NCBI RefSeq assembly: GCF_002160865.1
Contig: NZ_NFLJ01000011.1
Coordinates: forward strand, 1 to 64,000
Source: Massiliimicrobium timonense
GTDB lineage: Bacteria; Bacillota_I; Bacilli_A; Erysipelotrichales; Coprobacillaceae
Length of the DNA stretch: 64,000 nt
Direction of reading: 5' to 3'
Position 1 is the first letter of the stretch, and every line of letters begins with the position of its first letter. The translations under genes were made by a program, and so were the position numbers. Below, in pieces: positions 11,435 to 54,256 of this stretch. The notes under the pieces were generated by a model that saw only the letters and a list, made by a program, of their open reading frames with translations, made no database searches and had not been told where the DNA came from.

Positions 11435-11965
11435 GTGTGCCGGGCATGGCATGGATTCAGTTGGAGATAAACCAACCACAGGTAGTTGCCGCCAAGTGTA
11501 GTGAACCACAAGCCGTTGATAGTGATGTCATGGGTGAAGGAAGTGGTGTAGCGATTCTTTCGAACGTACGAACAGAAACCTGATATAAGGCTAAATGGTG
11601 GATAAGGTTGCAAGACAAACCGAAGTCCAAATGGTAAACGTAAAACCAAGACAGTAAATCAGGGCGTTGTGAAAGAAATAGGATTCATGAATTACCCCGG
11701 GAGGTCTTATGGACGAGGAAGTCTAATAAACTTTAAAATCAGTGATAGTACCCTCGGTCGAAAAAGGTTTATCATAAGAAGTCAGATGAAGTCATAGTAG
11801 GTAGAAATACTGAAGGACTGAAACGTTTATAGAGTGCAAATCACTATAAGCAATGTTTGGATAATCCGAATATGAGGATAGCCTAGAACTATGAATCGTA
11901 ATCATAGATGGTAAAAGTAATTGGGATGGTTCCAAATAAATTTACAAATAGAGGAGGAGCAGCAA

Positions 11966-13264
11966 ATGAAATTAATGGAAAAGATACTTAGTCAAGAGAA
12001 TTTAGAAATGGCTATCAGAAAGGTCAAACAGAATAAAGGAGCACCTGGAATAGACAGAATGACAGTGCAAGAAATTGAATACTGGTTTGAAAAATATCAA
12101 GATGAACTTATCACAAAGATAATGAACAAACAGTATCGACCAATGCCTGTCAAGAGAGTTTACATTCCAAAACCTAATGGAAAGCAAAGACCATTAGGGA
12201 TTCCAACAGTCATAGACCGAGTCATTCAACAAGCCATAGCACAGGTATTAAGTACAATCTATGAGCCAATATTCAGTGAACATAGTTTTGGATTCCGACC
12301 AAGACGTAGTGCACGTATGGCAATGGAAGAAGTGCTATATTATTTGAATGAAGGCTATGAATGGATAGTTGATTTGGACATTGAGAAGTTCTTTGATACG
12401 GTTAATCATGACAAGTTAATTTCAATCTTAAGAGAGCATGTCAATGATGCAGCAACATTACATCTTATACGAGCATATCTAAGAGCAGGTGTACTAGAGG
12501 ACGGACTTATTAGAAGCACAACAGTTGGTACACCTCAAGGCGGACCTATCAGTGTTGTACTATCAAATATCTATTTAGATAAATTTGATAAGGAACTAGA
12601 ATCAAGAGGGCTAAGATTCGTAAGATATGCAGATGATTGCATTATCTTCGTAAAAAGTGAAATGAGTGCAAATAGAGTAATGAAGTCGGTGATATCATGG
12701 CTGGAAAGGAAACTATTCTTGAAGGTTAGTGCCACGAAAACAAAAGTCATACGTCCAGTGAAAGGACAATTCCTAGGATTTACCTTTTATAAAGACAGAC
12801 AGGTATGGAAATGCAGACCTACAGAAGATAGAAAGAAACGCTTATATAAAAAGATAAAAGTCATTTTAACAAGGAAACAAGCTGTTTCAAGACCATTATC
12901 CATAACATTTACGAAAGTCAATCAAGTAGTAAGGGGATGGATAAACTATTTTAAGATAGGGTGCGTAAAGAAATTCCTTGAAAAATTTGGACAATGGTTA
13001 CGCCACAAGATACGATGTATCATCATTAAGCAGTGGAAGAAACCAATGACAATTTATGGAAATTTGATGAAACTCAACAAAGCATGTAAGTGCAACTTTA
13101 GTGATGAAGATATTTATAAATGTGCTAACACAAGACTAGGGTGGTATAGAAGAAGTGGACTCATTATAGTCAACAGCATTTTATCACCAATAATTCTAGG
13201 CATAAGAAAAGGGAATCGACCAGGTTTGGTCAATCCCCTTAGCTACTATCTTAAGAGCTTGTGA
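11966..13264 (+). CDS. ltrA: Group IIC intron reverse transcriptase/maturase
   Basis: 432 aa. Reverse transcriptase and maturase of the surrounding intron; it assists splicing and copies the intron RNA at the target. RT blocks are in order: NKGAPGIDRMT near residues 25-35, YIPKPNGKQRPLGIP, HSFGFRPRRSA, VDLDIEKFFDTVNH, GTPQGGPIS, and the catalytic FVRYADD near residue 221. A maturase domain follows (VRGWINYF, ANTRLGWYRRSG). There is no HNH endonuclease domain, as usual for class C. ATG 11966 follows GAGGAGGAG (11951-11959); an upstream in-frame start lacks such a site. Confidence 0.95.
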   Translation: MKLMEKILSQENLEMAIRKVKQNKGAPGIDRMTVQEIEYWFEKYQDELITKIMNKQYRPMPVKRVYIPKPNGKQRPLGIPTVIDRVIQQAIAQVLSTIYEPIFSEHSFGFRPRRSARMAMEEVLYYLNEGYEWIVDLDIEKFFDTVNHDKLISILREHVNDAATLHLIRAYLRAGVLEDGLIRSTTVGTPQGGPISVVLSNIYLDKFDKELESRGLRFVRYADDCIIFVKSEMSANRVMKSVISWLERKLFLKVSATKTKVIRPVKGQFLGFTFYKDRQVWKCRPTEDRKKRLYKKIKVILTRKQAVSRPLSITFTKVNQVVRGWINYFKIGCVKKFLEKFGQWLRHKIRCIIIKQWKKPMTIYGNLMKLNKACKCNFSDEDIYKCANTRLGWYRRSGLIIVNSILSPIILGIRKGNRPGLVNPLSYYLKSL

Positions 13265-13279
13265 TTCGATATAAATGTA

Positions 13280-13352
13280 GAGCCGTATACGAGAACCGTA
13301 CGTACGGTTCAACGGGAGGGGCAATAAAACTTGATTCTATTCCTCTACCCTA
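13280..13352 (+). ncRNA. Group II intron domains V and VI
   Basis: Domain V is a hairpin with arms GAGCCGTA (13280-13287) and TACGGTTC (13303-13310), including the AGC-type catalytic triad expected in the 5' arm. Domain VI follows (about 13314-13352), with the probable branch-point A in the 3' arm near CCTCTACCC. These form the catalytic 3' part of the ribozyme. Confidence 0.85.
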
Positions 13353-13415
13353 TTATATATAATAAAAGCTCCTGTATAATGTAAGTGACCAAACTACAAT
13401 ACAAGGAGCACTTAT

Positions 13416-45044: not shown

Positions 45045-45066
45045 AAAAAGTGGAAAACCACTTTTT
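45045..45066 (-). terminator. Terminator of nudF (minus strand)
   Basis: Stem AAAAAGTGG (45045-45053) / CCACTTTTT (45058-45066), loop AAAA. It overlaps the nudF stop. Confidence 0.8.
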
Positions 45067-45595
45067 AATGATGAACTTGCTGATATGCATACATAATCGC
45101 AATAACTGTTTTCGCATCAACAATTTCTCCACTTAAAACTTTTTGATAAGCCTCATCAATATCTAATTTGATAATATCAATAAATTCATCTTCATCACCC
45201 TCTAAAGCATCATCAACTTCTTCAAAATCAATCGCTTCATAAAGATATAACCATTCACTTGTATAACCGGGAGATGGTAAGACTTTCATAATAAACTTCA
45301 TCTCACGTGCACGATTGTTTGTTTCTTCCTCTAATTCACGAAAAGCACAATCTTTGGGATTTTCATTTGCTTCTAGTTTACCAGCAGGAATTTCTAATGT
45401 TTCTATACGATTAGGATAACGAAACTGTTTTACAAGAAGAATCTGATGATTTTTGATAGCTAAAATGCAGACACCACCATGATGATAAACAACTTCTCGA
45501 TAAGCATGTTCACCATTTTCTAATTCAACTTCTTCACGTGTTACCTGCATAATTTTCCCATCATAAATCACTGTTCTTTGAATTTCTTTTTCCAT
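45065..45595 (-). CDS. nudF: ADP-ribose pyrophosphatase (Nudix hydrolase)
   Basis: 176 aa. Cleaves ADP-ribose and similar nucleoside diphosphate sugars. The Nudix box GKLEANENPKDCAFRELEEE lies around residues 72-91 and is complete (G-x5-E-x7-R-E-x2-E-E). Substrate-side features such as EIPAGKLE and PGYTSEWLYLY match the NudF/ADPRase group. ATG 45595 follows GAGGTG with 6 nt spacing. Its upstream region carries a three-hairpin RNA with a terminator, so expression may be attenuated. Confidence 0.93.
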   Translation of the reverse strand: MEKEIQRTVIYDGKIMQVTREEVELENGEHAYREVVYHHGGVCILAIKNHQILLVKQFRYPNRIETLEIPAGKLEANENPKDCAFRELEEETNNRAREMKFIMKVLPSPGYTSEWLYLYEAIDFEEVDDALEGDEDEFIDIIKLDIDEAYQKVLSGEIVDAKTVIAIMYAYQQVHH

Positions 45596-45619
45596 GATTT
45601 TCACCTCATGCCAATTATA

Positions 45620-45722
45620 ACATAAAAAGAAAGTATGCGGGGGAGCATACTTTCTTTTATCTCTATTATTTTACACGTTAGGGTAATAATAGGGGGTATG
45701 TTTAAGTGAGAACCACTTAACA
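45620..45722 (-). ncRNA. Candidate C-rich small RNA or attenuating leader upstream of nudF
   Basis: On the minus strand a promoter (45756-45729) would start transcription near 45722. The RNA then folds into three hairpins: one pairing 45714-45723 with 45698-45708; a second pairing 45685-45692 with 45663-45670; and a perfect 13-bp stem (45657-45645 with 45638-45626) around loop TCCCCC, ending U-rich like a terminator. C-rich motifs ACCCCC (between hairpins) and TCCCCC (terminal loop) stay unpaired. That is the design of anti-Shine-Dalgarno sRNAs such as RoxS/RsaE. Alternatively it is the 5' leader of nudF, whose start codon lies 31 nt beyond the stem. Family unknown. Confidence 0.6.
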
Positions 45723-45728
45723 TAGATA

Positions 45729-45756
45729 ATTATAACAGAGATTTAAAAGTTGTAAA
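45729..45756 (-). promoter_or_regulatory. Promoter of the candidate RNA upstream of nudF
   Basis: Minus strand -35 TTTACA (45756-45751), -10 TATAAT (45734-45729), 16-bp spacer. Confidence 0.6.
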
Positions 45757-45820
45757 GGCTTTCAATTAAAAATGTATATTTTTTTCTATCAAACTTTGTT
45801 AAAATGAAAGAGGTGATGAC

Positions 45821-46801
45821 ATGAAAACTTTAAGAATAGATGAAAATTATGAAAATCAAAGAATTGATAAGTATTTAAAAAAATTACTTTCTCAAGCACC
45901 ACCTCAAATGATTTATAAGATGTTAAGAAAAAAAGATGTGAAAGTGAATGGTGTCAGAGTAAAAGAAAACTATATTTTAAAAAAAGGAGATCTGGTTGAA
46001 TTATTTTTGTATGAAGATCGTTTTTTAGAATTAACACAACCACAAAGTATTTTTGATTTACCCATCACTTTTGATGTTTTATATGAAGATGATAATGTTT
46101 TGATTGTTAATAAACCAGCCGGATTATTAGTTCATGAAGATATCCATGAAGATGTCAATACATTATCCAATCAAGTTTTAACATATTTATATCAAAAGGG
46201 GGAATATGACCCAAACCAAACTTTAGGTTTTACACCGGGTCCTGTTCATCGTTTGGATCGTAATACAAGTGGAATTGTCATTTTTGGAAAAACAATGAGA
46301 GCTTTACAGGATTTAAATGAAATGATGAAAAAACGTCATTGTATTGATAAAACTTATTTAACGATCTGTAAAGGCTATATGCCTAGTGGTGAGTTAATTG
46401 GATATATGAAAAAAGATAGTGATCGCTCTTTGGCAAGAATGGTATCACCTTCGACTGAAGGCGCATTAAAAATGCATACCATTGTTGAAAATATTCAATC
46501 AAATCAAAAATATTCATTATTAAAAGTGAAAATTATTACAGGAAGAACGCACCAGATACGTTTACATTTATCCAGTGCTGGACATCCTATCATTGGTGAT
46601 AGTAAATATGGAGATTTTGAATTGAATCGTTATTTGAAAAAAACTTATCATTTTCAAAATCAGTTTCTGCATGCTTATTCTATTTGTTTTATTAAACCAA
46701 TAGGTTCTTTAAAATATTTACAGGATCAGGTGATTACTTGTCCTTTACCACATCATTTAGAAGTTTTGAAAAATAAATTGTTTCATGAAAAGAAGCTATG
46801 A
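45821..46801 (+). CDS. RluA-family 23S rRNA/tRNA pseudouridine synthase
   Basis: 326 aa. Isomerises uridine to pseudouridine in structured RNA. An N-terminal S4 RNA-binding domain (about residues 13-70) precedes the catalytic domain with the family motif HRLDRNTSG, whose Asp is the catalytic residue, and GRTHQIRLHL near the C-terminus. It belongs to the RluA/RluC/RluD group; I cannot assign the target site. AGAGGTGATG precedes ATG 45821. Confidence 0.92.
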   Translation: MKTLRIDENYENQRIDKYLKKLLSQAPPQMIYKMLRKKDVKVNGVRVKENYILKKGDLVELFLYEDRFLELTQPQSIFDLPITFDVLYEDDNVLIVNKPAGLLVHEDIHEDVNTLSNQVLTYLYQKGEYDPNQTLGFTPGPVHRLDRNTSGIVIFGKTMRALQDLNEMMKKRHCIDKTYLTICKGYMPSGELIGYMKKDSDRSLARMVSPSTEGALKMHTIVENIQSNQKYSLLKVKIITGRTHQIRLHLSSAGHPIIGDSKYGDFELNRYLKKTYHFQNQFLHAYSICFIKPIGSLKYLQDQVITCPLPHHLEVLKNKLFHEKKL

Positions 46802-54037: not shown

Positions 54038-54256
54038 GTCAAATCGTTGAAGAAGAAAAGTATTTATAAGTGAACTTATAGAGAGGAAATGGTTGGTGCA
54101 AATTTCTAGAAGCTTATAAAGAAAGCTACCTTCTAAGAGTGATGAAAACATCAACGTATGTCGGCGTTAACGATTAAAGAGCATAATGAATATTCATTAT
54201 GAATGAGGATGGTACCGCGATAATAGTCGTTCCTTTTCAGGAATGACTTTTTTTAT
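54038..54256 (+). promoter_or_regulatory. T-box riboswitch (alanine) controlling alaS
   Basis: Leader RNA that binds uncharged tRNA-Ala and prevents termination. The conserved T-box core GGATGGTACCGCG lies at 54207-54219. The terminator is stem AGTCGTTCC (54225-54233) / GGAATGACT (54240-54248) followed by a T run. A stem I region spans about 54045-54140; GCT at 54125-54127 followed by A is the likely specifier codon. It ends 17 nt before the alaS start. Confidence 0.93.

Follow-up and report, generated by a model that had tools for sequence, protein, structure and literature searches.

A conserved C-rich small RNA of Massilimicrobiota, Thomasclavelia and related gut bacteria that probably masks the ribosome sites of genes for amino-acid synthesis

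Between the divergent genes of an rluD-like pseudouridine synthase (45821-46801, plus strand), the more constant neighbour, and of a nudF-like NUDIX hydrolase (45065-45595, minus strand), the 64,000-nucleotide stretch of DNA analysed here (the window) carries a minus-strand promoter followed by a short, C-rich and strongly folding segment. The question raised by this locus is whether the segment is a leader controlling nudF or a small RNA (sRNA) in its own right and, in the latter case, which messengers it would act on. The promoter, TTTACA-16-TGTTATAAT at 45729-45756 (-35 box TTTACA at 45756-45751, -10 box TATAAT at 45734-45729, preceded by TG), agrees with the consensus at 11 of 12 positions and is conserved in the aligned relatives, which confirms the original prediction of a promoter at 45756-45729 as a near-consensus one.

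The RNA predicted to follow, of about 98 nt and with predicted ends at about 45722 and 45625 (minus strand), has a folding energy of -29.9 kcal/mol, while shuffled versions reach -11.2 +/- 2.4 and none of 200 equals it (z = -7.7); the three hairpins that had been expected within about 100 nt of the promoter are present. Hairpin 1 (TATGTTAAGTG..CACTTAAACATA, 45697-45724) is paired in 98.7% of the alignment cells, three of its pairs being changed on both sides. It is followed by the CCCCC of the anticipated unpaired ACCCCC, which is single-stranded at 45696-45692 within the nearly invariant ACATACCCCCTATTAT and is proposed as the seed for AGGGGG ribosome sites; the predicted mean unpaired probability of this linker C-run is 0.85 over 27 orthologues. 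Hairpin 2 (CTATTAT..ATAATAG, 45663-45692), with a conserved ACCCTWACG in its loop, is paired in 94% of cells and shows few changes. The last element, at 45625-45658, is an intrinsic terminator with the TCCCCC loop that had been described, on a stem of 14 bp instead of the 13 bp first given, and 8 of its 11 aligned pairs are changed on both sides. When the sequence of each relative is folded individually, the three-hairpin fold recurs in nearly all. Across 855 kb from the same genus (the window plus a sample of the relative G004), the terminator of this sRNA is the only one with a C-run loop.

The region was recovered by DNA search in most of the family, which includes Massilimicrobiota, Thomasclavelia, Faecalibacillus, Longibaculum, Stoquefichus and Beduini, and the covariance search in related genomes that had been suggested as a check matched 31 of the 43 family genomes at E < 1e-11. 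More divergent copies were found in G021, G029 and G023 and, by eye, in G007, G012, G020 and G028, while the same model gave no comparable match outside the family among 395 genomes across the class; the sister family f2 is without the sRNA. Common to the 28 aligned sequences are TGWAANCCTTTACA over the -35 box, the TATAAT, hairpin 1 and the stretch ACATACCCCCTATTATCACCCTWACGTG, and the terminator stem drifts in sequence around a loop that is constantly UCCCCC, ACCCCC or GCCCCC. In this alignment 96.3% of the cells are paired and 11 of 24 pairs are changed on both sides, a result reached by none of 500 shuffles, and slid versions of the alignment pair 37 to 57%. The original prediction had staked itself on pairing conserved in relatives, and such pairing exists: hairpins 1 and 3 show compensatory changes, and the double-sided changes are confined to these two helices, helix 2 being kept but nearly invariant and so weakly tested by covariation. 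As judged from sequence comparison, this is a strongly conserved regulatory RNA of about 100 bases, previously undescribed, in gut bacteria of the genera Massilimicrobiota, Thomasclavelia and their relatives; the literature searched held no regulatory sRNA for Massilimicrobiota, Thomasclavelia or Faecalibacillus.

A 40-codon frame (MLSGSHL...) runs open through the RNA in the genome of the window, so that a short peptide gene was also considered. This reading was rejected and deserves practically no credit, since the C-runs vary from 4 to 7 bases among relatives, so that the reading frame is not kept and stop codons interrupt it. Two departures from the common form were observed: in G031 a decayed second copy (L038:1548-1646) that has lost its C-runs (CATACTTCCATTATCACC) lies 1.4 kb from the intact one, and the orthologue L101 (G007:C1:1504691-1504790) has a differing 3' part and terminator (GGGGCTGTAACG..), in which the CCCCC of the terminator loop is gone and ATACCCCCTAT is retained. 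Exact-pattern matches in contigs labelled 'Oscillibacter' and 'Bacteroidia' (L061 and L052), with no promoter or terminator nearby, were judged to be chance.

The RNA ends in a terminator, and in most genomes nudF follows it directly. It could thus be taken for a leader (attenuator or riboswitch) that responds to ADP-ribose or NAD+ and stops transcription before this gene, the alternative which the original prediction had raised. Its description of the terminator as ending just before the nudF ribosome site had, however, left out a conserved nudF promoter lying between the two: nudF has an extended -10 of its own (TGTTATAAT, 45614-45622, minus strand), which marks it as a separate transcription unit. 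A -10 follows the terminator in 22 of 23 nudF-adjacent loci, in 19 of them in the extended form TGnTATAAT or TGnTATACT; its distance from the nudF start codon is mostly 17-24 nt. Moreover, the sRNA is kept in Beduini, whose locus has no nudF; in L010 the two are 0.7 kb apart, other DNA has been inserted before nudF in some relatives, and nudF is absent from the fetched stretch in L011 and L016. Since the -10 of nudF follows the terminator and the gene is absent or displaced in some relatives, the sRNA is read as its own transcription unit. The best conserved bases, too, are the C-runs and the -35 region, structure predictions gave no competing antiterminator fold, and neither a dependence of nudF on readthrough nor a constant association with the gene was seen at the locus. 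Attenuation of nudF is thus unlikely, and a riboswitch answering to ADP-ribose or NAD+ is very improbable. Nor is nudF judged a target in trans: its Shine-Dalgarno sequence, GAGGTG at 45607-45602, is without a G5 run.

An own promoter and terminator, a conserved unpaired C-run and a conserved structure are the marks of a C-rich sRNA acting in trans, of which three, RoxS, FsrA and CsfG, have been described in B. subtilis (PMC8216469, PMC8464778). RoxS/RsaE of Bacillus and Staphylococcus, which are controlled by carbon and redox regulators, are similarly of about 100 nt, with C-rich unpaired regions and a terminator hairpin, and their C-rich regions mask the ribosome sites of metabolic genes (PMC8216469, PMC8464778). 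The original prediction had compared the locus with this type, and its C-rich, masking kind is supported by the conservation, the unpaired C-run and the GGGGG sites described below. Membership of the RsaE/RoxS family fails: to the C-rich single-stranded stretches and terminator can be added a weak match to the whole covariance model (RF01820), but its 15.8 bits stand far under the cut-off of 79, at the background level of chance matches in the window's own genome, and none of 41 family genomes passes, a B. subtilis control being positive. The Rex operator TTGTGAAW4TTCACAA (PMC2883068) is likewise absent from the sRNA promoter, whose palindrome TGWAANCCTTTACA differs from it in spacing. An orthologue of RsaE/RoxS is therefore extremely unlikely; by the covariance model the two are non-homologous, their operators differ, and the apparent targets here belong to amino-acid biosynthesis and not to the TCA and NAD functions targeted by RoxS/RsaE. 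FsrA of B. subtilis, an 84-nt C-rich sRNA, comes nearer in its targets, since the glutamate synthase gltAB and leucine genes are also in the candidate set found here (PMC8464778); it is, however, an iron-sparing RNA under Fur control, whereas the present promoter palindrome is, by eye, not a Fur box. RsaI of S. aureus likewise binds its targets through a C-rich region (PMC8216469), and RosA of B. subtilis differs in being a G-rich sponge. Searches of Rfam 15 at both gathering and permissive thresholds matched no family at the sRNA locus, which sets it apart from FsrA, RsaI and RosA insofar as Rfam 15 includes them. Thus, the kind of RNA, C-rich and masking ribosome sites, is known, while this family, along with the regulon that it seems to have, appears to be new as far as has been searched.

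The nearly constant, single-stranded CCCCCU has AGGGGG as its complement, and few genes carry GGGGG as their ribosome site: in 791 kb sampled from G004, 13 of the 837 genes called do. The statistics are based on this sample of one relative and on the fetched loci. Targets were searched first as AGGGGGTAT-N0-9-ATG, the ribosome-site complement of AUACCCCCU, in 43 genomes. The downstream genes recur across species and many are amino-acid genes. Five genomes, from two genera, have the site before hom, three before ilvE, and two each before argD and citrate synthase; ilvA, gltD, carA and aminotransferases were also found. The intended negative control, AGGGGGATT, gave more sites, in the same gene classes (ilvE, hom, leuC, asnB, argF, argG, gltB and a PII-like protein), and the hypothesis was therefore recast around the G5 core AGGGGG in place of the 9-base site.

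This G5 ribosome site is present in 27 of 30 ilvE orthologues and in 21 of 30 hom orthologues as found by the gene caller (a few extra by direct inspection), AAGGGGG or AGAGGGGG preceding the start in most. It is found in only 13 of 247 other genes of the same loci (Fisher p about 1e-32, with orthologues that are not independent observations), and these comprise eight threonine synthase, two aspartate-semialdehyde dehydrogenase and two citrate synthase genes, named by eye, so that 12 of the 13, nearly all of this background, fall in the same pathway class. G5 sites of several genera also lie on threonine synthase, asd, citrate synthase, argD/F/G, carA, leuC, gltB/D and asnB. Counted as distinct genes, 12 of 78 with an AGGGGG site belong to amino-acid biosynthesis, compared with 1 among 40 genes drawn at random (p = 0.03), a modest enrichment in which the gene classes were assigned after inspection of the lists; argF and argG were identified by eye. 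For the genome of the window, pairing of the linker was predicted at -13.6 kcal/mol with the hom leader (AGAGGGGTATCGTATG) and at -13.3 kcal/mol with the ilvE leader (AAAGGGGGATTTTTATG). Energy-only target prediction over the 837 genes was not used as proof: its top energies fell inside the range given by shuffled linkers or close to it, and were little better than these.

The explanation considered best, and a likely one, is that of a stand-alone, trans-acting sRNA that blocks the AGGGGG ribosome sites of amino-acid biosynthesis messengers under a carbon or redox repressor. RNA polymerase would initiate at about 45722 and halt at the terminator with the C-rich loop; the CCCCCU, conserved and unpaired, would then pair with AGGGGG Shine-Dalgarno sequences, with help from the ACCCU loop and from the UCCCCC of the terminator loop, and translation of the hom, thrC, asd, ilvA/E, leuC, argD/F/G, carA, gltB/D, asnB and citrate synthase messengers would be blocked. 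The RNA, its structure and conservation, the accessibility of its C-run and the conservation of the G5 ribosome sites are computed results; pairing in vivo, repression as its outcome rather than activation, and the regulator of the sRNA are what we infer from them.

A different reading accepts the sRNA as real and lets the GGGGG sites of the amino-acid genes answer elsewhere, to another C-rich sRNA, to a protein or to the tuning of translation, the present RNA having other targets or being a sponge. The core common to the candidates is indeed only six bases, AGGGGG, with varying flanks, and the pattern has exceptions: G016 and G060 possess the sRNA and a hom without the G5 site, and G019 keeps G5 in ilvE with no sRNA detected. 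Other C-rich sRNAs also occur in the family, such as one of Pho-box type, and in G014 two such RNAs have C5 loops. Against this stand the exact complementarity of the invariant CCCCCU to AGGGGG and the lack of a second C-run-loop terminator in the 855 kb of same-genus sequence, and this reading is considered rather unlikely.

Returning to the masking sRNA, its transcription would probably be set by a carbon- or redox-responsive repressor bound over the -35 box. A cre-like palindrome, TGAAAGCCTTTACA (45751-45764, minus strand), has the -35 box as its right half and is found as TGWAANCCTTTACA in 27 of the 28 aligned relatives, a conservation exceeding the needs of a -35 box, which suggests an operator; TGWAANSSNTTWCA occurs once in the window, at this palindrome. 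It fits the canonical cre TGWAANCGNTNWCA at 13 of 14 positions, the centre being CC and not CG in all aligned relatives, and a CcpA-like protein (G000:C20:28978-29973) was found, whose 265 bits fall short of the curated cut-off of 442. RsaI is under CcpA control, and RsaI and RosA are small RNAs of the CcpA regulon; here, such control is indicated only by the cre-like site with its CC centre. Other copies of the TGWAANCCTTTACA motif precede rnfC (in two genera), adhE, gapA, a formate-transporter-like (focA-like) gene, flavin reductase genes and a fructose PTS, named by eye; these are genes of fermentation and redox metabolism, in keeping with the carbon or redox control that is plausible for the sRNA. 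Genome-wide, the cre-like motif has few sites and, once the sRNA loci are subtracted, about as many as a reversed control.

Palindromes of the form TGWAANCCTTTWCA were observed in several genera at L155 and L169 (rnfC), L115 and L129 (adhE), L148 (gapA), L143 (formate-transporter-like) and L167, L168 and L170 (flavin reductase); it is possible that these genes form a regulon of the same regulator as the sRNA.

If the candidate targets are taken together, the GGGGG ribosome site may be a shared address through which one C-rich sRNA co-regulates most of amino-acid biosynthesis (threonine, branched-chain, arginine and glutamate), an RNA-based general amino-acid control tied to the carbon or redox state. 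This wider proposal is tentative, with chances somewhat short of even, and it predicts that the genes with G5 ribosome sites make up one post-transcriptional regulon of amino-acid synthesis. Evolution would then have preserved a rare Shine-Dalgarno variant in front of many genes that are not linked, apparently in the role of an address for an sRNA. For these common gut bacteria, the sRNA itself appears to be a new, strongly conserved family.

Other RNAs were noted in the course of the analysis. In the window, a T-box leader (54038-54237, 126.9 bits) lies directly 5' of an alanyl-tRNA synthetase-like gene and pieces of a group II intron give Rfam matches at 11516-13353, both ordinary. L105, L106 and L107, from the distant family f13 of the same class, are weak matches to the model; these RNAs, too, are C-rich, their linkers and terminator loops holding six to seven C, and are possibly further C-rich sRNAs. 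Finally, a second C-rich type (GACGACCCCTCTCCCTATAT..TTCGTC, terminator loop TTCCCC) was found at G000:C2:38482-38563 (L096) and in L095, L097, L098, L110 and L113, with related RNAs in L099, L100, L102 and L112. Upstream of it lie TTCACA/TTCATA direct repeats about 11 nt apart, like a Pho box, and in G003 it occurs in tandem; a phosphate-starvation sRNA is a possible reading of this type.
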